Virus record (IMG/VR): IMGVR_UViG_3300037293_000449
Location: 1 to 51,073 of that record
Strand: one strand, 5' to 3'
Length of the DNA: 51,073 nucleotides
Origin: a virus
Position 1 is the stretch's first letter. Each line of letters opens with the position of its first letter. This document shows, piece by piece, positions 540 to 50,433 of this stretch. The notes under the pieces were generated by a model. The model saw only the letters and a list, made by a program, of their open reading frames with translations. It was not told the DNA's origin and ran no database searches. The position numbers and the translations under genes were made by a program.

Positions 540-578
540 GCCCGAATGGCGAAACTGGTAGACGCATGGGACTTAAAA
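540..578 (+). pseudogene. 5' half of tRNA-Leu(UAA), split by the element
   Basis: The segment begins GCCCGAATGGCGAAACTGG, which is a tRNA-Leu acceptor strand and D-arm, and runs through the 5' anticodon stem into the loop CTTAAAA. After base 578 the sequence (GCATTTGAGTG) cannot form the 3' anticodon stem, variable arm or T-arm. The missing 3' half is at 50378-50433. Joined at the shared core, the two give a complete tRNA-Leu(UAA) with paired acceptor GCCCGAA/TTCGGGC and encoded CCA. The left end of the element does not restore the gene. Confidence 0.9.
570..578. other. attL core (GACTTAAAA)
   Basis: Nine bases identical to 50378-50386 at the other end; they lie in the anticodon loop and last stem pair of the split tRNA. 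Eight of them (ACTTAAAA) also occur in the anticodon loop of the element's own tRNA at 49996-50003. Confidence 0.85.
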
Positions 579-970: not shown

Positions 971-1159
971 TTAGGCTGGGCAGTACATCGTCTGGGAAAA
1001 TCGCACCACATCTTCACGCTTGTAAAAGACTCGGCGAGTGAGGTGCTTATGAGCCGGGAGTTTATCCCTGAACTTTCCAGTGTAGCGCCAGAAACGCAGC
1101 GTCTCGGCAGACAAGCCCAGGATTTGCGCAGCTTCGCGGGGGTTCAGATATTCCGACAT
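971..1159 (-). CDS. excisionase-like MerR-type HTH protein
   Basis: A 62-residue protein that is almost entirely one winged-helix unit: YLNPREAAQILGLSAETLRFWRYTG, then a basic stretch and the FYKREDVVRF wing, the pattern of MerR-like excisionases and AlpA-type regulators. It should bind DNA at the att site or promoters and bias recombination towards excision. Its place, as the outermost gene at the end opposite the integrase, fits such a role. The ATG at 1159 follows AAAAGGAAA. A terminator-like hairpin at 1338-1377 separates it from an upstream minus-strand promoter. It could instead be a small transcription activator. Confidence 0.7.
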   Translation of the reverse strand: MSEYLNPREAAQILGLSAETLRFWRYTGKFRDKLPAHKHLTRRVFYKREDVVRFSQTMYCPA

Positions 1160-1474: not shown

Positions 1475-2773
1475 TTATAGCGTATTTATGTGCAGGTCTC
1501 CGATTTCGTTTTGAGCCTTGAAGCCGTTAGTGCCAGGTTTGTGTTTGATGCGAGCCATCACAGTTGCGCCGCTAGCCTTAATTACATCCTGAAGTTCTTC
1601 CATAGGTGTCTTAGTGGCCTTCGCGATCTTCTGGATGGTTGAGTTGCTGATCTTGATTGCCATGTCGCTATTACCATCACCATAAAGTCTATGCCAGAAG
1701 TGCCGCCCGGCATGATCACCCGACATGACTTGAAGTTCCATTAGTACAGATGCGCCACCACTCTTTGTGGGTTTGCTGTTGAATGACTTGAACTTGATCA
1801 TTGCGTCGTGGGTTGGCATTGCTTCCGTCGATTCCGACTTTTTTACGACAATAGTGGTATCGACCTGCTTCTTGAACTTCCTGCGAATTGAGTTGATGTG
1901 GGACTTCGCGAAGATTTGGCATGAACGCCATGCAGCAGCATCTTGTGACTCGCCAGGTCGCGGCCTGTTTCGTGGGTATTGCATGTCGCGGAAGTACGGA
2001 TCGTCTGAGTGTTCAGTGTTGTCGACCTCGAATAACCTCCTGGCGATCTCCTCTTCTGTAGCTGAGGTGATCATTCCGCCGACAATTCGATTGAGTTCGT
2101 AAGAGCGTCCACGGGCTCCGGTATTGCCAGTTGCTTTGCGTGATGCTCCAGGCTTGTACATCATGCTGAGTCCGTAGCTCGACTGCTGAAGCTTCAGCTC
2201 AAGCACTTCGACAGGGTTGCCAGGGTTGTAAAAGCTGATTGCATGAGCAAGGCGATCAGGATGCGCGGTGTAGACGTAGTAGCACTGCGATGGAACCCTC
2301 CAGCAAGGGTCGATAGCGCGAAGGAGTCTGCCATCCAGAAAGTCGTCTAGGGTCTCAAGCATCGCTGCGCAGATCGAATTGTGCTCTTCGTGAAAGTAGG
2401 GTCGGTCAGGAGTGATTACCACACGGAACCTTGGCGCGCTTAGGGTGTGGCTGTGGCTCGTATAGAGGAAGTGCTCAAGACCCAAGTCAAGGAGCGCGTC
2501 CTCGATCTCTTCAAGCGCGATCATGTCGTCGTCATACCCCTCACCAAGTTTCTGGTCGATGTCGAAGATGATCAAAGAAGACGAGATCACATTGAGGTCA
2601 CTGCGCGCAGGGATGTTAAAACTGGCTGGTACGAACGTCATTGCATTCGTTTTCTCGGCCAAAACCTTTGGCTGTTCAAAGTGCTTTTCGAACAGCATTT
2701 TTAATGAGTCAGCTGACTTGTTCGAAACGTAGTTCGTTGAAGCAGTCGTCTGTGTTGCATATCTAATGGTCAT
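1475..2773 (-). CDS. primase-like replication protein with DUF669-like C-terminus
   Basis: A 432-residue protein with two apparent modules. The N-terminal half has an IIFDID acidic motif near residue 70, then YTSHSHT and RFRVVITPDRP, an order that recalls archaeo-eukaryotic (PrimPol-type) primases of plasmids and phages: D-x-D, S-x-H, then a basic strand. The last 110 residues (FKSFNSKPTKSGGASVLM, then GRHFWHRLYGDG and a helical end) resemble DUF669 phage proteins, which usually lie beside single-strand-annealing or helicase genes. It probably makes primers or recognises the origin. ATG at 2773 is preceded by AAGGAAAGAG. It diverges from the helicase gene, whose promoter is nearly identical. 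Primase activity is inferred from motifs and context. Confidence 0.55.
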   Translation of the reverse strand: MTIRYATQTTASTNYVSNKSADSLKMLFEKHFEQPKVLAEKTNAMTFVPASFNIPARSDLNVISSSLIIFDIDQKLGEGYDDDMIALEEIEDALLDLGLEHFLYTSHSHTLSAPRFRVVITPDRPYFHEEHNSICAAMLETLDDFLDGRLLRAIDPCWRVPSQCYYVYTAHPDRLAHAISFYNPGNPVEVLELKLQQSSYGLSMMYKPGASRKATGNTGARGRSYELNRIVGGMITSATEEEIARRLFEVDNTEHSDDPYFRDMQYPRNRPRPGESQDAAAWRSCQIFAKSHINSIRRKFKKQVDTTIVVKKSESTEAMPTHDAMIKFKSFNSKPTKSGGASVLMELQVMSGDHAGRHFWHRLYGDGNSDMAIKISNSTIQKIAKATKTPMEELQDVIKASGATVMARIKHKPGTNGFKAQNEIGDLHINTL

Positions 2774-2820
2774 TTGCTCTTTCCTTTTCTTTTGAGGCTC
2801 TCTCTTGCCTCCATGTTCCC

Positions 2821-2850
2821 AGTATTAGAAATGAGCAAATGTTGTTGCAA
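2821..2850 (-). promoter_or_regulatory. promoter of the primase-like gene
   Basis: On the minus strand: TTGCAA (2850-2845), then TTTGCTCATTT (2839-2829) and AATACT (2826-2821). The TTTGCTCATTT element keeps the same distance to the -10 as in the divergent helicase promoter. Confidence 0.6.
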
Positions 2851-3158
2851 CTACTTTTTTATTTATTTGGGCTGGCGAGAGCTTAGGACGGCTATTGAGT
2901 GTGTGTCTAACGTGTTTCTGCGCTGAGCTCAGCTTCAAGGGGGTTCACAAAAAGTTTTTCTTAGTCATGCTTGGTTTTGAGTCACCCCACCTACCTATCG
3001 TCATTTCTTTCTTCTTCTATATAGAGAGCTAGTAGATGGGGTGGTGGAACAGTAAAAACACTTGGTTCAGAGAAACGCTTTTGACCTGTCCCTGTAAGAT
3101 GAATGTATACCTCATTTAATTATTTAGTCTATTTTCATCGTGGCATCTTGTATCAGTG
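2851..3158. other. spacer between divergent replication genes, candidate origin or operator
   Basis: About 310 bases without a credible gene. It holds a perfect 12-base palindrome GCTGAGCTCAGC (2922-2933), an A/T-rich stretch near 2855-2875, a TCTATATAGA palindrome near 3016, and CACCCCA/TGGGGTG arms. Such a region between a primase and a helicase gene could contain a replication origin; I see no tandem iterons in it. Confidence 0.4.
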
Positions 3159-3177
3159 TTTGCTCATTTTGGATACT
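3159..3177 (+). promoter_or_regulatory. promoter of the helicase gene
   Basis: TTTGCTCATTT (3159-3169), two bases, then GATACT (3172-3177). A weak -35 candidate TTGTAT lies 18 bases before the -10. The same 11-mer occupies the same position in the divergent primase promoter, suggesting one regulator for both. Confidence 0.55.
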
Positions 3178-3224
3178 GACTACATCAGGGGAATGAGAGA
3201 GCCCCTAAATAGAGGAAACACAAT

Positions 3225-5564
3225 ATGAATAATGCAATTTCTACACAATCAGTCATCATCGACAACAACAAAAATGCTTTGGAATCTGCTCTTGAACTTA
3301 GAGAGTACAAAAACACTACCCGCCTGATGTCTATCGATGGCGATGTACTGAACGCTGTCTCAGTAGCTTATAAAACAGCTTCTGGTCTCCACAGCGCCGA
3401 TGCTGGTCAAATCACTCGTTCGATCTACACGATGTCGAAAATCGCAATCGCCCTGATGATCGTGAAAGCTGACAGCAGCGACAAAGCTTTCGACGCAGCA
3501 GCCTTCGAAATCGCTCGTGATGTTTTCGTCTCCGGCAAAACCCAGGATAAGGCCCATGCTCTCGCTGAAGCAACTGGTCGCACCCAGGCTGCTTGCGAAT
3601 CAATGATCAATAGCAAGCTCGAATTCCTCACCAGCAGGATGAACTCAAAAACCAACGCGCTGACCGACACTGGCATCTCTACTGAGACCCCAGAAGCCAT
3701 TCGCGACATCATCCTGGCAGACGGTGGCAAATACCTGATCAGCCTGCCTACCGGCGAGGGCAAGTCGACCATCATCAACGAGCCAATCCTCAAGCAATAC
3801 ATTGCAGCAGGTAAGAAAGTCCTGGTCATCTCCCACAGGCGCTCAATCAACAAAGCCTTGGCTAACATCGACGGTATTGTGAGCTACGACGAGTGCGATC
3901 AACCTGAAGTCCTGCTCAACGCCAAGGGTCTGAAGATCGTCGTTAACTCGCTCAACTCACTCAAGTTCAAACGCTTCATCGCGAGTGTCGACCTGGTGGT
4001 TATCGACGAGGCATCCCAGGTGATCTCCCACGTCCTCGGCGGCGAAGTCAAAAATCGCCAAGCCGTATGGGAAACCCTTAATTTTGTCGTCAAAAACACC
4101 CCGAGCGTCATCATGTCTGACGCTGACATCGACGCACGCTGCGCTGAAATGATCGGGCCTGGCTACAAGCTGTTCAAGAAGCCTGCAGCTCACTCTGGAA
4201 TTACTGTGAAGACCGGTGACATCAACCATGTGCGTGCCCTGGCCGTCGCGTCAGCTTGCAAGACACCGACCCTGATCGCCTGTGACGCAGTGAAAGAAGC
4301 CCTGGCTCTCGCAAAGTCGATTGAAAAGCAAGGTGGGCCAGCAGCGCTCGTAATCACTGCTGACAATGCCTTGTGGCCGGAGCAAGCGGCGTTCATCGCA
4401 AACCCAAACGGCACGAATCACCAAGTCGTCATTTACAGCCCAGTGATCACGTCAGCGCTATCGATCACCTCTGGTCACTTCAAAGCTCACTACGGCGTTT
4501 TTCAGGGGCAGGTCGTGCCAAGTGACGCGATTCAGATGCTTCGTCGTGACCGCACCGCCAAGAGCTTCGTGGTGGGCATTAAGCAGTCGATGTACAGCAA
4601 GTCTGAGGCCGTCGAAGCGACGTACAAGTGCAGCCCGATTGCTCTCGATGATCTCGTTCCACATCTGAAAGCTGACACCTTCGTCCCGGTAGTTTTTATC
4701 CGCGACCCTGACAAATCAGATGAAGAAAATGATGCTGCGATCAATGAGGCTCAGGCTGATGCCAAGAAGGCGTTTGACGCAGCCCAGAGCGCCAAGCTTC
4801 AAAGATTGATCAGCGCTGAGGTTGCGTCCATCAACTTCCGCTTTGTTGAATACGGGCATCGCAAAAACGAGGCATGGCTGCGAGACAACATCCAGTCGGC
4901 ACTTCCAGCAAGCCTGCTCGCACGTGGCTTTGAGGTTGAAGTTCTTGAGCATGACGATGACCTATCTCTGGCCGGATTCAAAGCAGATAGTCAGTCCCGC
5001 AAGGCTGTTAAGCGTGAAGTAGCCAAAGGCCTCAACCACGCCGTCAAGGCTGACCCAGTGACTGCTCAGCGTGTTCAAGAGTTCGGCTCGGTAAATGAAC
5101 AGGAATACTTGGAGGCGTCTCGTGCAAGGGCGATTGAGGTGATGAAGGTATCGGACTTTGATCTGGATGACGCGATGATCTGGGGACATGGCGAAGGTGA
5201 ATCCAAAATCATCAAATTCCGCGAACTGATGAGCACCACTGAAGCCCTTGGTGCAACAGATGATCGCAGCTCGAAAAAGGTAATGTCTCTGCTGAAGCCC
5301 GCGCTTGAAACAATGTCTACCAGCAACGCCTGGTCTGGCATAGAAAGCGTTGCACTGTTCGACAGCCTCAACACCATTCGCACTGACGTGCTGACAGTAG
5401 GCATCAGGATTAGCTCTGCAAAAAGCGATCAAGCCAAGAAGGCGGACATAACGAAGATCTTCAGTCAGTTCGGACTTGTCGTCAAAAAGCACGAGACAAC
5501 GAACAAGCAGTTCTTCTACACCGTTAGCCCGAAATCACTGGCTCAAATGACACGATACATCTGA
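3225..5564 (+). CDS. large superfamily 2-like replication helicase, plasmid/origin-binding type
   Basis: A 779-residue ATPase. Walker A is SLPTGEGKST near residues 173-182, followed by KVLVISHRRSI (motif Ia type), and Walker B is DLVVIDEASQV near residue 260. An MSDADID segment follows, where motif III would lie. The layout resembles the helicase part of CyRepA1-type plasmid replication proteins and herpesvirus-type origin-binding helicases. In CyRepA1 proteins a primase is fused in front; here the primase-like protein is encoded separately and divergently. The last 250 residues are charged and unassigned. ATG at 3225 follows GAGGAAAC. It is probably the replicative helicase or initiator of the element, acting in the cytoplasm on its origin. 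Confidence 0.65.
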   Translation: MNNAISTQSVIIDNNKNALESALELREYKNTTRLMSIDGDVLNAVSVAYKTASGLHSADAGQITRSIYTMSKIAIALMIVKADSSDKAFDAAAFEIARDVFVSGKTQDKAHALAEATGRTQAACESMINSKLEFLTSRMNSKTNALTDTGISTETPEAIRDIILADGGKYLISLPTGEGKSTIINEPILKQYIAAGKKVLVISHRRSINKALANIDGIVSYDECDQPEVLLNAKGLKIVVNSLNSLKFKRFIASVDLVVIDEASQVISHVLGGEVKNRQAVWETLNFVVKNTPSVIMSDADIDARCAEMIGPGYKLFKKPAAHSGITVKTGDINHVRALAVASACKTPTLIACDAVKEALALAKSIEKQGGPAALVITADNALWPEQAAFIANPNGTNHQVVIYSPVITSALSITSGHFKAHYGVFQGQVVPSDAIQMLRRDRTAKSFVVGIKQSMYSKSEAVEATYKCSPIALDDLVPHLKADTFVPVVFIRDPDKSDEENDAAINEAQADAKKAFDAAQSAKLQRLISAEVASINFRFVEYGHRKNEAWLRDNIQSALPASLLARGFEVEVLEHDDDLSLAGFKADSQSRKAVKREVAKGLNHAVKADPVTAQRVQEFGSVNEQEYLEASRARAIEVMKVSDFDLDDAMIWGHGEGESKIIKFRELMSTTEALGATDDRSSKKVMSLLKPALETMSTSNAWSGIESVALFDSLNTIRTDVLTVGIRISSAKSDQAKKADITKIFSQFGLVVKKHETTNKQFFYTVSPKSLAQMTRYI

Positions 5565-15649: not shown

Positions 15650-16129
15650 TTACCTTCCTTGTTCGGCAATATGAGACAAATAGATGTCAACGGTATTGCT
15701 AAGCGCCTGGGCATCTTGAAGCGCACGGTGCCCTTTGCGCACGGGAAGTAGCTTCAATATCTCAGACGCAGCTTCACGACCAACAAATGACTCAATCGGT
15801 TTGACTTCAAACGTTGGATCGATGCCCGCCGCTTCGTACAGCACGTCGAGCCAGAAACAATCTGCGGGGTTGTCGGAGCACAGGGTTTTGCCGTCAAACA
15901 GGTGGTTCATCCTTTCAGCCACCTGGATAGCCGGGGTGCCTTCATTCACCAGCTGCTCACGGGTGATCTGATGCATGTCCTGCGCGTCGTAGCTCCAGTG
16001 ATCCCAGTACGAGGCTGGCTGGATCAGGGCTTGATACTCACCACCAGTGAAGACCACGGCCACTTCGATTGGGTAGCTGTCGGGCGCAATGCCGGACGCC
16101 TCGAAGTCGATGAAATGTGTTGGCTTCAT
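15650..16129 (-). CDS. DEDDh 3'-5' exonuclease, DnaQ-like
   Basis: A 159-residue exonuclease domain. THFIDFEASGI supplies the first D-x-E, DCFWLDVLYEAAGI the second Asp, and KGHRALQDAQAL the His and last Asp, so the set D-E-D-H-D is complete. It should degrade single-stranded DNA or RNA from the 3' end. The start at 16129 begins right before the catalytic strand; a TTG six codons upstream is possible. It is the first gene of an operon with the DUF4238-like gene. A copy of the 12-mer repeat encodes FDGK inside it. Without a polymerase gene nearby, proofreading is unlikely; a nuclease role in defence or RNA turnover is equally open. Confidence 0.75.
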   Translation of the reverse strand: MKPTHFIDFEASGIAPDSYPIEVAVVFTGGEYQALIQPASYWDHWSYDAQDMHQITREQLVNEGTPAIQVAERMNHLFDGKTLCSDNPADCFWLDVLYEAAGIDPTFEVKPIESFVGREAASEILKLLPVRKGHRALQDAQALSNTVDIYLSHIAEQGR

Positions 16130-16223
16130 GCCGGTCGTCCATGCCAAAAGGACATCTTCTCTGTGGCCAGGTTTGGAGTCAAACCGCGTTGCCTGGGCGC
16201 GGGCCCGGTGATAGGTTGCCGGG

Positions 16224-26547: not shown

Positions 26548-27500
26548 TGGCTTCCTTGGCGAACAAGACGATCAAGCACCAGATCGCCATGCGCGGCCAG
26601 TTCACACGCATCGCGAAGCAAGCCGCACTGCACCTGCAGACTCTCAAGGTGTCAGTCAAGGCTGAGCTAGACGAAGCTATGACTGCGCGCAACTGGACTG
26701 CCGTTGCTCGACTACGGAAGACGTTCGTGACAATCGACAAGCTCATCGCTGATGAGTACGAGCTGATGTCTGAGACGCTCAAGCAGGAGCTCGGCGACCT
26801 GTTTGTGTACGAGTCGGAATTCAGCAGCAAGCTTTTGGGATTCGATTTCAGCAGCAACATGGTCACTGAAAAGCTGGTTGAGAGCATCGTAAGCAGCGAC
26901 CCGTTTGACGGCAAAATCTTAGGTGAGTGGCTCGACGAGCAGAAGCTTGCGACTCAGATCAAGGTGAAGCAGACGATCAGGTTGGGCGTGCTGAATGGGT
27001 TGTCGACGTCGAAGATCGTGGATGCGTTGTATGCGGAGCCTGGGAATCCATTCGTTGGTGCTCGCAGGAATGCTGAGGTGATGGTTCGTACAGCTTCAGC
27101 GCATGTGACGTCGCAAGCTTCGTTGAAGACTTTTGAGCGTGTTGGTTTCGGCTCGTATCAGCTGAGCGCTGTGCTCGACTCTCGGACGACTCCGGTGTGC
27201 CGTGCCCTGGACGGCAAGATCTATAAGACCTCCGACAAGGGCCGTAAGGTGCCTCCGTTTCATCCGGGGTGCCGCACAGTGATGATAGCTGTTACTGAAA
27301 ATGATCCTGCGTTTACCGATGGGTACGAAGACTGGCTCAGCACGCAGAGTGCCGGCGAGCAGGAAGCGATTCTGGGCCCGGCAAGGTACAGGCTGTGGAA
27401 GTCAGGTCAGCCCCTAGAGAGCTTCGTGGATCTCGATACGCATCATGTCATCCCGCTGGACGAGCTGAGATCAAAAGAAGTTTTTCTAAATCAAGAATGA
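26547..27500 (+). CDS. minor head protein, Mu gpF/SPP1 gp7-like
   Basis: A 317-residue protein with the signature of the Mu F-like family near residues 210-250: LSAVLDSRTTPVCRALDGKI, then VPPFHPGCRTVMI. The N-terminal half is helical. These proteins are placed in the head interior or near the portal and help early morphogenesis. The start overlaps the Rz stop as TGATG. It is unusual that the gene lies after the lysis cassette and not beside the portal. A reverse copy of the 12-mer repeat encodes FDGK near residue 120. Confidence 0.8.
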   Translation: MASLANKTIKHQIAMRGQFTRIAKQAALHLQTLKVSVKAELDEAMTARNWTAVARLRKTFVTIDKLIADEYELMSETLKQELGDLFVYESEFSSKLLGFDFSSNMVTEKLVESIVSSDPFDGKILGEWLDEQKLATQIKVKQTIRLGVLNGLSTSKIVDALYAEPGNPFVGARRNAEVMVRTASAHVTSQASLKTFERVGFGSYQLSAVLDSRTTPVCRALDGKIYKTSDKGRKVPPFHPGCRTVMIAVTENDPAFTDGYEDWLSTQSAGEQEAILGPARYRLWKSGQPLESFVDLDTHHVIPLDELRSKEVFLNQE

Positions 27501-27510
27501 CTCGTATCAA

Positions 27511-27606
27511 CTGCCCGCTGCCACCCCCACTACTGTCCCTTTATTTAAGAAAAAGAAAAGAGAGAGCGATGGTAGTGGGGGTAGATCAACACCCGACCAG
27601 GGGCAG
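27511..27606. repeat. long interrupted hairpin before the DUF1320-like gene
   Basis: ACCCCCACTAC (27523-27533) pairs perfectly with GTAGTGGGGGT (27572-27582); outer arms CTGCCC (27511-27516) and GGGCAG (27601-27606) can close a larger loop. The 38-base loop is A/G-rich. No T-run follows, so it is not a standard terminator. Confidence 0.55.
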
Positions 27607-27640
27607 TACCACTACTACTATGGCTAAGAGAAACGCTTTT

Positions 27641-31056: not shown

Positions 31057-31659
31057 TTAGATTTCCCAGCGCTGCCCATCATGATCGATGGTGATCACTT
31101 GGCAATTAGAGATGGAATTTTTCAGGTCATAAGCGCGGAACGCCCGCATGGTTTCCGAGTCAATCCGCACGGGAGACTCTACTACCAGCCATCGCACAGC
31201 CTGGATAAATTGACCGTGACCAAACACAGCAACAGTGCCAGTCATCCCGTGCAGCCTCCGCAACGATTCCCTAGCCCGCTGGATCAAACCAGCAAAAGAC
31301 TCAGTACCGGGCCCATCGACAAAATCCGGATCTGCAGACACCCAGTAGCTATCTACCCACGGTTTTCGCTCCGCAGCTGTAGTGTTAGCGCACCTGCCAG
31401 GAGATAAGTAGGTGAACTCCTCAACCGCCCAGGCCTCAACCGGCACGCCAGGAAAGCGCTGAATGGTAGGCTGAGCTGTATCCTGAGCCCGTTCAAAAGG
31501 AGACGTCACGATCAGACTCGGGGCCTGGTCGAACGAATTGGCAACAGCCCGAGCCTGAGCCCAGCCTTTCTCAGTCAGCGGAATCAGCGCCGGGTCGGAC
31601 GTAGCATTGCCAGCGTTCGCAGCACTCTCACCATGCCTCACAAAATGAACTGTCAGCAT
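31057..31659 (-). CDS. histidine phosphatase family protein
   Basis: A 200-residue protein with the full branch-1 histidine phosphatase set: HFVRHGESAAN (catalytic RHG) at residues 5-15, LIVTSPFERAQDTA with the second Arg, an acid/base Glu near EEFTYL, and VAVFGHGQFIQAV with the second His. Substrates in the family range from phosphohistidine to sugars and nucleotides, so the target cannot be told. It overlaps the gene before it by seven bases and lies 21 bases before the T5orf172-like gene, in one operon. A metabolic or counter-defence role is possible. Confidence 0.8.
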   Translation of the reverse strand: MLTVHFVRHGESAANAGNATSDPALIPLTEKGWAQARAVANSFDQAPSLIVTSPFERAQDTAQPTIQRFPGVPVEAWAVEEFTYLSPGRCANTTAAERKPWVDSYWVSADPDFVDGPGTESFAGLIQRARESLRRLHGMTGTVAVFGHGQFIQAVRWLVVESPVRIDSETMRAFRAYDLKNSISNCQVITIDHDGQRWEI

Positions 31660-45596: not shown

Positions 45597-46256
45597 ATGA
45601 AAAGTTTCAGAAGCATATTAAATGCACAACATGTAGCTCAGTTGTATCTTGAAAATAAGTCGATTAACGGCATGAGTAAGAGAGCTGGGGTGTCAGATGA
45701 ATTGACAAGGTTTGCATTCACTCTGGCACTCCGTGGCGTACATCCGAATAGCCTTGACTCTATTTTTGACTTCAGACTTGAAGACGTTGTCGGTCTCCTG
45801 CTCGCTGATAAAGAGACCACGCAGGATATGAAGGATGAATTCGATGAGTTCAGGGTTGTTTGGCGCAGGCTGCATTGCCGTGAGCGTGATCGGCGGGACG
45901 CGATTTGGCGACTGGAAGCGATAAAGCCAGGTTCAAAAACAGCTGAGCCATTTCTCGAATCTCTTGATGCAATAGCTGAGGCGGACGAGGTAGATCCGAT
46001 TGGGGAGGCCTTTGCTATGGGGATCGACGAGGTCTTCGAGATAGTCCCCGTCACGTCGGTGCCAGGCTGGATAGACTACATCGCGTGCGACGACATTCCA
46101 GAGCCGTGGTGCGAGCGCTTCTCACAAGCTAGCACTGGATCGACGGCTACGATCCGTGGGAGCTATGCGTACGACTGGGAAAAGTTTGTGCGGTGCTGGA
46201 AGGTCGAGATGGATATGATAGCTAAACACCAGTTGGCACTTGGGGAGTCGCTATGA
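45597..46256 (+). CDS. HTH-containing uncharacterised protein, candidate regulator
   Basis: A 219-residue protein. Residues 10-45 (VAQLYLENKSINGMSKRAGV, then SDELTRFAFTL) look like a helix-turn-helix of the simple AGVS type; the rest is helical and acidic with WRRLHCRERDRRDAIW near residue 90 and an unassigned C-terminus. ATG at 45597 lies nine bases after AAGGAG; the TTG at 45588 is too near. It is coupled to the exonuclease gene by ATGA. With no CI-type repressor in sight it is one of few candidates for a regulator, but this is conjecture. Confidence 0.45.
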   Translation: MKSFRSILNAQHVAQLYLENKSINGMSKRAGVSDELTRFAFTLALRGVHPNSLDSIFDFRLEDVVGLLLADKETTQDMKDEFDEFRVVWRRLHCRERDRRDAIWRLEAIKPGSKTAEPFLESLDAIAEADEVDPIGEAFAMGIDEVFEIVPVTSVPGWIDYIACDDIPEPWCERFSQASTGSTATIRGSYAYDWEKFVRCWKVEMDMIAKHQLALGESL

Positions 46257-46717
46257 AAATTGTTGTGGACTGCGAATTCACACAGCTCAATGCTACCTCC
46301 AAACTTATTTCCATGGCGCTAGTTGCGGAAGACGGCCAAGAGCTCTACTTCGAGCTTAGCGATAATTACGTGATTGGCGATTGCAGTGATTTTGTTGTTG
46401 AGAAGGTATTACCACAGCTGTCAGGAGGTAGCGACTCAATATCACTGATTGCTGCAAGGCAGGAATTGTTGGCGTTCTTGGCTCGCTTCGATAATGTCGA
46501 AATCATGTCTGACGCGCCCGCATGGGACTGGGAGTTCTTCTGCGATATCGCTTACCACAACGGAAAGTGGCCAGGCAATGCATCCAACAAGCCGCTTAAC
46601 TTGATTGACATGTTTAATAATAAAAATATGCAAGGGGAAGATGCGCCGGAGCTTCCACATCATGCGTTGCTCGACGCTAGATTACTAATGAACTACTACA
46701 AGCGTCTTCTCAAATAG
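46253..46717 (+). CDS. DEDDh 3'-5' exoribonuclease, Rv2179c-like
   Basis: A 154-residue nuclease: KIVVDCEFTQL gives D-x-E, DAPAWDWEFF the middle Asp, and LPHHALLDARLL the His and last Asp. The layout (short, LISMALVAEDGQELYFE strand after the first motif) fits the Rv2179c-type 3'-5' exoribonuclease group. It overlaps the HTH gene by four bases. The element thus has two DEDDh nucleases, this one beside the mobilisation genes. It ends eight bases into the converging relaxase gene. Confidence 0.7.
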   Translation: MKIVVDCEFTQLNATSKLISMALVAEDGQELYFELSDNYVIGDCSDFVVEKVLPQLSGGSDSISLIAARQELLAFLARFDNVEIMSDAPAWDWEFFCDIAYHNGKWPGNASNKPLNLIDMFNNKNMQGEDAPELPHHALLDARLLMNYYKRLLK

Positions 46718-47864
46718 CTAGCTCTAGTTCGTCGGGAATATTTAATTGCTGTCCAGGTACATACTCAATGTACTTTCGCTTGAGCCTGCACTCCTGAGGC
46801 TTGAATAGCGCGTCAAATATAGCATCGATGAGTTCCAGAATTTCCTTGATCATCTTTTGAACTTCGTAATCCCTTGCTGTGAACTTGATGTAGATTGGCT
46901 TTCTTCTGCGCCCGTTAACTGCGATGAACTCATAGTAGTGGATTCTAATTCTTTCTTGGTCTTCGCTATCTCTTCTTGCAATTTCATCCTGAAGTTGATG
47001 AATGGTTTCTGGATCATAGTGCATTCCTTCTTGTGTAGTTAGTTTATGCCACGTAAGTCTTGAGCGTTTGAGTTGTCTTCCGCTGATGTGTTTGCCGTCA
47101 AACTCGAAGCTGATGCCTTTCGGTTGGCCTTCATCATTGAGCGTCAGTTTGATGTAGACCTTCTGCTTTCTCAGGGCCCTGACGAAGTCGAACATGTCTC
47201 CTTGGATTGCGTTGGTGGCTTCGATAGCGCCTGCAATCTTTGCGATCATCTTGTGCTTGAGCGGGAGGTCACCATCTCTGATCGATGCCTGGAGTTCTGC
47301 GTGAGAGATCGAAACGCCCCAAGTATCCTTAGGCTTTGGGGCTTTGCTCAGGTTGAAGCGATCTTCGATGCCGGACACTGACTCAAGGCTGATCGAGCGT
47401 TCGTTGCTGTCCTTGACCATCGAGAAGTCGTCATTGAGCCGGATGCGATTTGCGACGATGTGGACGTGTTGATGATCCTTGTCCTGGTGCATTACAGCGA
47501 CGTACTGAGTCGTTTCGTCGAAGCCTAGGTCTGTCATGTACTTCGTGACGGCCTGGCGCCACTGTGAGGTTGTTAGAGACTCACCTGGGCGCAAGGACAG
47601 CATGGCGTGGAAGACCGGTTTAATGGCCTTCTCAGAGTCGATGGCGAAGCGCCTGAGCGTCTCAACCTGGTCGAATTCGCGGATCATCTCCGAAAGGTCT
47701 GACTCGTTGCCCTGCAGGACGCCTGGCAGTGGGTCTTTGCTCATAGTGTTGAAGCTGATCGTCCGGATTCCGCTGATCTCATGGTCGTGCTTGGTACAGC
47801 CGAAGATGTAGCGAATGCGGTTCTTAAACGAGCCTGCAGATTTAGGAAAGATCTTTCCAATCAT
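46710..47864 (-). CDS. relaxase (MOB, PF03432-type)
   Basis: A 384-residue mobilisation nuclease. Its N-terminal domain has FKNRIRYIFG, which supplies a candidate nicking Tyr, then FHAMLSLRPGESLTTSQWRQ and the metal-binding motif VMHQDKDHQHVHIVANRIRL with the H-x-H-x-H pattern of VirD2/MobA-type relaxases. The C-terminal third is charged and helical. It should nick oriT and lead the strand into a recipient through a type IV secretion system supplied by another element. It overlaps mobC by four bases (ATGA), giving a standard mobC-relaxase operon. Length is short for plasmid relaxases with helicase or primase ends, but complete for the nuclease. It is unusual on a tailed-phage genome. Confidence 0.88.
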   Translation of the reverse strand: MIGKIFPKSAGSFKNRIRYIFGCTKHDHEISGIRTISFNTMSKDPLPGVLQGNESDLSEMIREFDQVETLRRFAIDSEKAIKPVFHAMLSLRPGESLTTSQWRQAVTKYMTDLGFDETTQYVAVMHQDKDHQHVHIVANRIRLNDDFSMVKDSNERSISLESVSGIEDRFNLSKAPKPKDTWGVSISHAELQASIRDGDLPLKHKMIAKIAGAIEATNAIQGDMFDFVRALRKQKVYIKLTLNDEGQPKGISFEFDGKHISGRQLKRSRLTWHKLTTQEGMHYDPETIHQLQDEIARRDSEDQERIRIHYYEFIAVNGRRRKPIYIKFTARDYEVQKMIKEILELIDAIFDALFKPQECRLKRKYIEYVPGQQLNIPDELELAI

Positions 47865-48154
47865 TTCACACCTCCAAGATTCACTTGGGCGATGTACTTC
47901 ACCTTCTCAAGCAGTTCGCTTCCTGGGCGATCCGCATTGATCATTGATGCAAGGTTCATCAACTCCCTGGCGATCTGTACGACATCCTGAGTGACTTTTG
48001 GCTTCACCTGCCCATTGGCAACGTAGTCACGGATAAACGCTCCAGCTGACTTGTAGCCTGCCTCAGTCATCTTGGCATTAAGAGTGTCTAACTCCGTTTT
48101 GTTTAGTCGTAGGGTGATGCGGGACTCTTTGGTTTGTCTCTCTATAGTTTTCAT
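47861..48154 (-). CDS. MobC-like mobilisation accessory protein
   Basis: A 97-residue protein with an N-terminal ribbon-helix-helix-like part (ESRITLRLNKTELDTLNAKM, then AGYKSAGAFIRDYVANG) and a helical end (VVQIARELMNLASMINADRP), the pattern of MobC/NikA-type accessory proteins that bind near oriT and recruit the relaxase. The start follows AAAGGTGGG and, further up, AGAATAATAAAGG, a version of the leader used by the phage genes. Directly upstream lie a nested dyad and an iteron array, likely DNA targets. Confidence 0.75.
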   Translation of the reverse strand: MKTIERQTKESRITLRLNKTELDTLNAKMTEAGYKSAGAFIRDYVANGQVKPKVTQDVVQIARELMNLASMINADRPGSELLEKVKYIAQVNLGGVK

Positions 48155-48344: not shown

Positions 48345-48483
48345 GAAACTTTCGCAAGGTGTGAATGCGAAAACGCAGCAAGGGAGTGCGAAATCGCAAA
48401 CAAGGAAAGCGAATTCGCTCTCATGTACTGCGACAATCACAAGGCGTGACTGTGGTTTCGCAATAACATAGTGCGAATTCGCA
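48345..48483. repeat. array of seven 21-22 bp iterons (TGCGAAWTCGCA)
   Basis: Units begin at 48345, 48366, 48387, 48408, 48429, 48451 and 48472. Four are nearly perfect palindromes (TGCGAAAACGCA, TGCGAAATCGCA, AGCGAATTCGCT, TGCGAATTCGCA); the other three keep one half-site (TTTCGCA at 48345 and 48451, TGCGA at 48429). The 21-22 bp step puts all sites on the same face of the helix. It lies between the integrase stop and mobC. Confidence 0.85.
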
Positions 48484-48511: not shown

Positions 48512-49891
48512 TTACAGGCTAACTTCTTTGGTATCGAGCATCTTGGTATCGAGGTCAGCCAAGGTGGAAAGTAGACCTCGGCACACAAAATCTTTTTCGA
48601 GGCCAGCACTGTTCAGAATCTCGGTTTCAATCTTCGTAGCAGCATCACGGATCTCTGAGAGATATGCCATTTTGTAGCCATCTGTCACGTCCACAGTCTG
48701 TCCAGCCGAATCATGGTTGCAGAGCACCTTGATGTAAAACGCACCAACACCGGCCCGCTCAGCGACTGACATGAAGCTGGCCCGCATGATTTTGCGTGGA
48801 AGATGCTGATTGATCCTGTCAGAAATCCTGCAGAGGAAGTCCCGGACATTCGACTCACTGACCTTATCCTGCTGCACTCCTGGGAAAACGTAGTCACCTG
48901 AAGAGTGCTTCATCGAGTACATCAGCTGGCAGTAAGCAGCATCGCTCAGAACAAGATGAAACTCCTTCCCATTTTTCAGGGTGTCTTCTTCATTTGTCTT
49001 GTTGCGTTCTGGAAAAACCACTGCGCGAGTTTTATGGCAAATATAGCTTCGCCGGATCTTATTGATCTCTCCAGGCCTAACTCCTGTGAAGAGCATAAAC
49101 AAAATCGCTGCCGAGACCGGCTTGAACGATGTAGGTACATCACGAAGCGGAGGGGTCTCGGAGATTTCTACACACCCCTTAATGAACTGACCCAGATCCT
49201 TTGGGTTGATCCGAATCTTATCGCGCTTGGTGGTATGCCATTGCTTGGTGTGTTTCATGATATCGACAGGGTTGTACTTGTAAATCGGCTCACCGATCTC
49301 GTTCTTATACCAGACAATCGAAAACGAAAAGATACCCCGAAGCAGGCACAAGGCTTTATTAGCAGATCGCTCCCTTGGTGGTGTAACTCGTCCATTCGGT
49401 CTGACAGCAGGGACGGTAGTCTCGTCATGGAGGTTCACAACGTCATCACTGGTAAAGCTTGAGATGGCCCTTGGGCCGTACTTCGCCTTGATGTAGTTGT
49501 TATAAGTTCGGTTGTAGTCATCGACTGTAGTCTTGGTCAGCTTCTTGCTTTTACGGCGCATGAAGTTTTCGAATGCCATGTCCAAGGTGAGGCTGTCCCG
49601 GAGAGACTTCGTTTCTTCAGCCTGCAGGATCTCATCAAGGTTCGCGTAGATCTTCTCTGCTTGCGCTCTAATCAATGGCAGTTTGGTAGTTTTGGGATTA
49701 AAAGCCTCAAGCTTGCGGCGGTGATCTTTTCCCAATACCTTCCTGACAACATAGAAGGCCTTGCCCCCAGCCTTAGTTACACGTAATACCAAGCCTTTAG
49801 TTTCAGTGTCATAAGCGAGCATATCAGCCTTACCTTCAGGGCAAACGAGTGCCTCCAGGGAAGCTTTGGTGAAGTGAATTTTCAAAGCCAC
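48512..49891 (-). CDS. int: tyrosine integrase
   Basis: A 459-residue P4/DUF4102-type integrase: an N-terminal arm-binding domain (YDTETKGLVLRVTKAGGKAF), a core-binding domain, then the catalytic domain with LFTGVRPGEINKI (first Arg, near residue 276), KIMRASFMSVAERAGV (second Arg) and VTDGYKMAYL (nucleophile Tyr near 420). In the second box the usual H-x-x-R reads K-I-M-R, so His is replaced by Lys. GTG at 49891 follows AAGGA. It lies next to the element's tRNA-Leu and about 490 bases from attR. It should recombine at the anticodon loop of tRNA-Leu(UAA). Confidence 0.92.
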   Translation of the reverse strand: MALKIHFTKASLEALVCPEGKADMLAYDTETKGLVLRVTKAGGKAFYVVRKVLGKDHRRKLEAFNPKTTKLPLIRAQAEKIYANLDEILQAEETKSLRDSLTLDMAFENFMRRKSKKLTKTTVDDYNRTYNNYIKAKYGPRAISSFTSDDVVNLHDETTVPAVRPNGRVTPPRERSANKALCLLRGIFSFSIVWYKNEIGEPIYKYNPVDIMKHTKQWHTTKRDKIRINPKDLGQFIKGCVEISETPPLRDVPTSFKPVSAAILFMLFTGVRPGEINKIRRSYICHKTRAVVFPERNKTNEEDTLKNGKEFHLVLSDAAYCQLMYSMKHSSGDYVFPGVQQDKVSESNVRDFLCRISDRINQHLPRKIMRASFMSVAERAGVGAFYIKVLCNHDSAGQTVDVTDGYKMAYLSEIRDAATKIETEILNSAGLEKDFVCRGLLSTLADLDTKMLDTKEVSL

Positions 49892-49964: not shown

Positions 49965-50049
49965 GCCTCGATGGTGAAATTGGTAGACACATCGCACTTA
50001 AAATGCGCCGCCGAAAGGTGTACCGGTTCGACTCCGGTTCGAGGCACCA
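49965..50049 (+). tRNA. complete tRNA-Leu(UAA) carried by the element
   Basis: An 85-base class II tRNA: acceptor GCCTCGA/TCGAGGC, D-arm GGTGAAATTGGTAGACAC, anticodon stem CGCA/TGCG with loop CTTAAAA (anticodon UAA), variable arm CGCCGAAAGGTG, T-arm ACCGG-TTCGACT-CCGGT and encoded CCA. It differs from the split host tRNA at many positions but keeps the same anticodon loop. It should read UUA and UUG codons in place of the broken host gene. Confidence 0.95.
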
Positions 50050-50377
50050 TCTCTCCTGCAATACCCATCCCACCTCGCTGCACCCACCAGAACGTCATTT
50101 GCGTCTAAAGATCTCGGGACAAAATCCATCCATCATCTGTACGTTTCATGATCAATTCCTAGGTTGGTGAGCCTTGGTAGCTCTTGGGAGCCGCTTGGTA
50201 GCTGCCACTGAAAGCCGCTCACATCTGCCAGCATCTCTCCTCAGCGCTCACCATCTCTCGGCGACCTGGCAAAGATCACTCTAAACGCCTGATATGCCTA
50301 GTTTTTAAGCCCAAAAACACGTTCAAAAGCTTTCCTAAGCTCTCGACTGCTTTCCGCTGCCGATTTAGGGCAGAATG
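50050..50377. other. right-end non-coding region, attR arm
   Basis: About 330 bases without a gene between the tRNA and attR. It contains the arm-type repeats at 50172-50203 and no credible ORF. Confidence 0.5.
50172..50203. repeat. arm-type repeats, right copy
   Basis: CCTTGGTAGCT (50172-50182) and TTGGGAGC, then a second CTTGGTAGCT (50194-50203); the first pair matches 708-727 at the left end. Confidence 0.55.
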
Positions 50378-50386
50378 ACTTAAAAT
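50378..50386. other. attR core (GACTTAAAA)
   Basis: Identical to the attL core at 570-578. The distance between the two gives an element of 49,808 bp. Confidence 0.85.
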
Positions 50387-50433
50387 CCCCCGCCTGTAAG
50401 GGCGTCCCGGTTCGATTCCGGGTTCGGGCACCA
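50378..50433 (+). pseudogene. 3' half of the split tRNA-Leu(UAA)
   Basis: GACTTAAAA followed by the 3' anticodon stem TCCCC, the variable arm CGCCTGTAAGGGCG, the T-arm TCCCGG-TTCGATT-CCGGG, acceptor TTCGGGC and ACCA. The bases before 50378 (GGGCAGAAT) do not restore the D-arm or acceptor strand, so no functional tRNA can form here. Confidence 0.9.

Follow-up and report, generated by a model that had tools for sequence, protein, structure and literature searches.

A divergent primase-OB and UL9-like helicase gene pair with twin origin-like elements: a probable replication module of integrative Pseudomonas prophages

What is the function of a primase-like gene that stands back to back with a helicase gene in a virus genome, and to which kind of replication system does such a pair belong? 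The question is raised by the IMG/VR virus record IMGVR_UViG_3300037293_000449, whose 51,073 bp were analysed as a whole (the window), and in which two genes, here called A and B, had been taken in the original prediction for a plasmid-type replication pair arising from a split CyRepA1 chain. Our analysis indicates that A and B probably serve as the module for DNA replication in a family of integrative Pseudomonas prophages, with B opening twin origin-like elements and A priming. The computed evidence comprises domain folds, invariant acidic residues, obligate pairing, the two elements and their restriction to contigs that carry A, integration, and leader hairpins. The features at the centre of the argument are as follows.

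1475-2773, minus strand: gene A, 432 amino acids, with a predicted archaeo-eukaryotic primase (AEP) core at residues 1-200, a helical linker at about 220-300 and an oligonucleotide/oligosaccharide-binding (OB) domain of the DUF669/single-strand-binding protein (SSB) type at 312-432
3225-5564, plus strand: gene B, 779 amino acids, a superfamily 2 (SF2) helicase of the CyRepA1/N15-RepA (Herpes_ori_bp) lineage, lacking a TOPRIM domain
2949-3081, no strand: element copy 1, with outer boxes at 2949-2968 (plus) and 3062-3081 (minus), inner arms at 2983-2994 and 3032-3043, and a 37-nt AT-rich spacer
27475-27639, no strand: element copy 2, with outer boxes at 27475-27494 (plus) and 27620-27639 (minus), and inner arms at 27521-27533 and 27572-27584

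Both reading frames are found at these positions, divergent and separated by a 451-bp gap, and the same divergent arrangement is kept in 35 of 35 homologous loci, far beyond chance, the two starts lying about 430-670 bp apart except at two loci. The pairing is obligate. One related prophage, L037, has a broken frame for the helicase, and at locus L060 the helicase beside A aligns only partly; in a further related prophage, L041, it is the primase frame that is broken.

The product of gene A is predicted to have an AEP core followed, at the C-terminus, by an OB domain of the DUF669/SSB kind. The AlphaFold2 model reached a predicted local distance difference test score (pLDDT) of 83 with an alignment of 33 sequences, and of 39 with an alignment of 10. 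Residues 1-198 of the model match S-2L PrimPol (Z-score 8.9, root-mean-square deviation (rmsd) 3.6 over 147 residues), with further AEP matches at Z-scores of 7.8 and below to CAPP, Prim-PolC, LigD-Pol, and eukaryotic and archaeal primases, while for residues 312-432 the match is PrgE, an OB protein (Z-score 9.7, rmsd 3.0 over 111 residues). Both the AEP fold and the OB fold are thus present in the prediction, and these matches lead us to describe A as an AEP and an OB domain with a helical region between them, which bears out the earlier proposal of a primase core joined to a DUF669-like end. For the helical middle (220-300) no known fold was matched, the search tools being weak for such a region, and a sequence search of A against the PDB gave no match. 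Among the BFVD models returned by the structural search, viral AEP-helicases and DUF669 proteins feature prominently, the latter at E-values of about 2e-7. By sequence, DUF669 is recognised at residues 313-416 (E-value 5e-4, 20.6 bits, under the Pfam gathering score of 21) and in 19 of 27 homologues at E-values up to 0.1 (best 1e-4), and the SSB PHROG matches the DUF669 region in 18 of the 27. PrgE of pCF10 (PMC11137577), which the OB domain resembles most closely in structure, is a free-standing protein from a conjugative plasmid, whereas here the OB domain is fused to a primase.

The catalytic carboxylates of an AEP are present in A, as motif I DxD (D71 and D73) and motif III hD (D155, assigned to this motif from its order in the sequence). 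Across 33 homologues that are 44-97% identical, D71, D73, S106, S108, R115, R117 and D155 are invariant. The D-x-D and S-x-H motifs read earlier in this protein therefore stand as regards D71-x-D73 and S106-x-S108, but not as regards the histidine, since residue 109 of motif II (sxH) is His in 15 homologues, Asn in 17 and Gln in one. The replacement of the motif II histidine in 18 of 33 homologues weighs against primase activity, as do the moderate E-values and Z-scores, and this replacement, like the weak AEP matches by sequence, could be explained if A were a degenerate primase that now serves helicase B mainly as an OB-type protein for binding single-stranded DNA or for recombination. We regard that as quite unlikely, given the invariance of D71, D73, D155, R115 and R117 and the match of all 27 scanned homologues to a DNA-primase PHROG, most of them also matching helicase-primase PHROGs. 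Taken together, A would be an active primase.

Gene B shows a Walker A motif (LPTGEGKST), a DEAS box and a QMLRRDR motif. Residues 174-310 match the Pfam family Herpes_ori_bp (PF02399) with 29.7 bits, above the cut-off of 20, and residues 171-460 match the NCBIfam model CyRepA1 (NF042913) at an E-value of 5e-47 and 161 bits, below the curated cut-off of 200. Its best matches in named phages are the RepA proteins of phiHAP-1, VP882, N15, phiKO2 and PY54 (phiHAP-1 RepA at about 34% identity over 322 residues), and those in plasmids are CyRepA1 proteins, the top ones from Pseudomonas protelomerase plasmids. A CyRepA1-like Walker-motif helicase in a gene of its own, divergent from the primase, is thus what the sequence matches and the 35 loci confirm. 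The conserved C-terminal region of B may possibly be DNA-binding.

The family relations of B bear on where the pair came from. In a maximum-likelihood tree of 32 helicase cores (with some long outgroup branches whose order is unsure), the B group forms one clade (100/99), sister (99/95) to a clade made up of the RepA proteins of the telomere phages (N15, PY54, VP882 and phiHAP-1) and of Pseudomonas protelomerase plasmids. These RepA proteins are single chains of about 1240-1350 amino acids, encoded next to the protelomerase gene, and carry a TOPRIM-type region ahead of the helicase (alignment motifs EGFATGAS and DND); Toprim_3 scores above the cut-off in VP882 RepA and more weakly in those of PY54, N15 and P. 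corrugata. Relatives from Legionella and vB_VpaM_MAR also show TOPRIM, and two cyanobacterial examples that were scanned carry DUF3854. In contrast, the prophage family has no TOPRIM and no protelomerase, has a separate AEP-OB gene, and is integrated: a scan of B for the TOPRIM family gave no match, and scans of 19 family records turned up neither a further primase (Toprim_3) nor a DnaB_C domain. A simple split of the CyRepA1/N15 RepA chain was considered and rejected, as the N-terminus of the N15 type is TOPRIM and the profiles of A and N15 RepA showed no match. Because the primase of the nearest relatives is TOPRIM and the one here is an unrelated AEP, the pair is not a cut CyRepA1 chain, and the idea of a split version has to be given up; the simplest history would be one in which the helicase dispensed with its TOPRIM part and gained an AEP-OB gene as its partner.

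Such a combination has a precedent in the All3500 family (PMC5862659), where an AEP likewise occurs with an SF2 helicase akin to UL9 of herpesviruses (PF02399). There the two are fused, whereas here there are two divergent genes, the OB domain is on the primase, and the helicase is nearest to TOPRIM-bearing RepA. CyRepA1 (NF042913), with Slr7037 of pSYSA (PMC9978351), belongs to the same helicase superfamily and is also a system in which primase and helicase jointly serve replication, though CyRepA1 is one chain and A and B are separate. The prophage family offers an apparently clear case of a TOPRIM primase giving way to an unrelated AEP next to the same helicase lineage.

If B is an initiator helicase, where might it act? 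In the centre of the gap between A and B lies the inner inverted repeat of copy 1, CACCCCACCTAC-37 nt-GTAGATGGGGTG (2983-3043), and a repeat of this type occupies the same intergenic place in most of the relatives' loci. The inner arms differ between clades, being ACCCCNNCTAC in one and ACCCTCAAC in a second, with the symmetry kept. Copy 2 has the inner repeat CCACCCCCACTAC-38 nt-GTAGTGGGGGTAG (27521-27584), just past the head-morphogenesis gene; its equivalent lies 11-66 bp past the head gene in most of 24 records, with arms matched by clade to those of copy 1. Outer boxes of the type AAAGCGTTTYTCTTARCCAA stand inverted around both copies in the window and around nearly all copies in relatives. 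An exact scan for the outer-box pattern in 2.9 million viral contigs returned 23 stretches in 14 contigs, all 14 of which carry gene A and nine of which have two copies. The copies are 24.5 kb apart, which is 0.49 of the prophage, and the corresponding distance is 0.44-0.57 of the record length in 15 relatives. At loci L021 and L022 the inner sites GTAGTGGGGGTAG of the intergenic region are direct instead of inverted repeats, and for this reason the inner sites point to protein-binding units rather than a hairpin. What is new here is this nested inverted repeat with an AT-rich centre, in a layout like that of herpesvirus oriS, together with its second copy 24.5 kb away. Upstream of repA in the telomere phages, nothing of this class was conspicuous.

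The layout has parallels elsewhere. The alpha protein of phage P4 is a single chain with a superfamily 3 (SF3) helicase and direct-repeat sites, and its cis elements are ori and crr, so that P4 likewise has two separate cis elements with one primase/helicase system. Herpes simplex virus (HSV), too, has more than one origin. The OriS of HSV-1 consists of two inverted boxes around an AT-rich spacer and is bound by a PF02399 SF2 helicase (PMC12543377). The twin elements resemble it in the PF02399 helicase, the inverted boxes and the AT-rich spacer, and differ from it in that the box sequences are unrelated, the outer boxes are nested around inner arms, and B is a putative partner for the boxes.

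We infer from this arrangement that the elements act as replication origins, and that they would be used in lytic rather than plasmid replication. In the proposed mechanism the prophage would excise before replication, after which helicase B would recognise the boxes in both nested inverted repeats (2949-3081 and 27475-27639) and open their AT-rich centres; protein A would coat the exposed strand and lay primers, and these primers would be extended by the host replicase. More specifically, though only tentatively and at a little under an even chance, the virus family may start replication through a UL9-like origin-binding helicase at two near-opposite oriS-like nested palindromes, with a separate AEP-OB primase having displaced the TOPRIM of the N15-RepA/CyRepA1 lineage.

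Several considerations weigh against an origin function. The element patterns were chosen after the data had been seen; the evidence for B as the box-binding factor is co-occurrence; four records (G004, G018, G020 and G021) have no clear inner repeat in copy 2; and the near-diametric spacing may follow simply from shared gene order. In addition, copy 2 might be a regulatory site, because it is situated among the late genes, with its right outer box overlapping the start codon at 27622. Indeed, the elements could be bound by a transcription regulator of the phage, through which the early replication genes and a late gene would be coordinated, while A and B replicate the genome from another origin, for example one inside gene B, much as the replication origin of N15 lies inside its replication gene. 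The position of copy 1 between divergent promoters and of copy 2 at a late gene start would suit such a regulator, and so would the direct repeats at L021 and L022, since binding sites can take this form. The elements are, however, large nested palindromes of about 130-165 bp with AT-rich centres, copy 1 is about 100 bp from either promoter, and the arms are kept symmetrical and clade-matched, so that we consider the regulator explanation unlikely, although it deserves some weight.

Returning to replication from the twin elements by A and B, we can ask in what state the genome is kept. The features that bear on this are the following.

540-578, plus strand: left junction, the 5' half of a host tRNA-Leu(UAA), with the core GACTTAAAA at 570
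50377-50433, plus strand: right junction, the 3' half of the host tRNA-Leu(UAA)
48512-49891, minus strand: tyrosine integrase
971-1159, minus strand: MerR/HTH_17 excisionase-like protein

When the two halves are joined at the common core GACTTAAAA, a complete 87-nt tRNA-Leu(taa) results, and the window therefore holds an integrated prophage of about 49.8 kb whose ends split the host gene. The ends of the window are bacterial, with a DUF2388 gene on the left and, by eye, an oxidoreductase-like open reading frame (ORF) on the right, and the prophage also encodes terminase, portal and tape measure proteins. Its close relatives are located in Pseudomonas genomes.

The original prediction had placed the pair in a phage-plasmid, and the kinship of the helicase with CyRepA1 plasmids and N15-type phage-plasmids, together with the presence of a relaxase, would be consistent with A-B as a plasmid replicon that keeps the phage extrachromosomal. 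The split tRNA-Leu speaks against it, as do the integrases in 19 of 23 family records, where ParA (PF13614) occurs in one, and the related prophage embedded in a 604-kb Pseudomonas contig. ParA (PF13614) was not found in the window, protelomerase (PF16684) was absent from 18 family records while two telomere-phage control records were positive, and the primase of gene A was found on 0 of 72,556 plasmids in PLSDB. An extrachromosomal replicon is thus very improbable; the element is an integrated prophage, and a phage-plasmid life style is not supported.

The prophage also contains a complete tRNA gene of its own at 49965-50049, which ARAGORN calls Phe(aaa). Its loop (CTTAAAA) and its variable arm point instead to a tRNA-Leu(UAA), and it probably replaces the host tRNA-Leu(UAA) that integration splits in the anticodon loop.

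Two further genes concern mobilisation.

46710-47864, minus strand: MobA/VirD2-type relaxase
47861-48154, minus strand: small MobC-like ORF

These are the MOB genes to which the original prediction had pointed, and the relaxase is kept in 20 of 27 relatives. Because it is present and retained, the excised prophage circle might be mobilised through it. The relaxase, carried here by a tailed-phage prophage, had only six weak matches among 50,697 phage records. As for the iterons of the same prediction, none were found in the A-B gap; 21-bp repeats do exist at 48352-48482, in the stretch that separates the MobC-like gene from the integrase and is upstream of the mob genes. They follow the pattern TCGCAA...GCGAAWWCGC at 21-bp spacing, some copies being inverted, and could represent a candidate origin of transfer (oriT) region or MobC binding sites. 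A member of an RNase H-like/exonuclease PHROG adjoins the relaxase (46253-46717), and a gene like a DNA polymerase exonuclease subunit lies at 15650-16147 on the minus strand; both might serve replication. A gene of the histidine phosphatase superfamily stands amid the structural region (31057-31659, minus strand).

Finally, A and B are alike in how their messages would begin.

2815-2860, minus strand: gene A promoter, sigma70-like (TTGCAA ... TAATACT), its spacer containing TTTGCTCAT, identified by eye; relatives share the layout
3140-3185, plus strand: gene B promoter, sigma70-like, its spacer containing TTTGCTCAT, identified by eye
2794-2811, minus strand: gene A leader hairpin, GAGGC-aagagaga-GCCTC
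3187-3206, plus strand: gene B leader hairpin, AGGGG-aatgagagag-CCCCT

Across the whole window TTTGCTCAT is not enriched. The hairpins lie at the mRNA 5' ends of both genes and have a purine loop around GAGAG, with stems that covary among relatives. Counted by script, as MAFFT misaligned them, they occur in 31 of 33 distinct leaders compared with 4.5% of shuffled ones, a rate that is somewhat optimistic because the loop pattern was chosen after inspection. The clade L031-L039 is without the leader hairpin.

Each genome has two matching origin-like elements, one beside the gene pair and one away from it, which makes the mode of replication directly testable. As the two elements evolve together, the co-evolution of initiator and site and replication from two origins could both be tested in easily grown Pseudomonas, and the herpesvirus-like layout of PF02399 helicase, inverted boxes and AT-rich spacer may provide a bacterial model for initiation of the oriS type.

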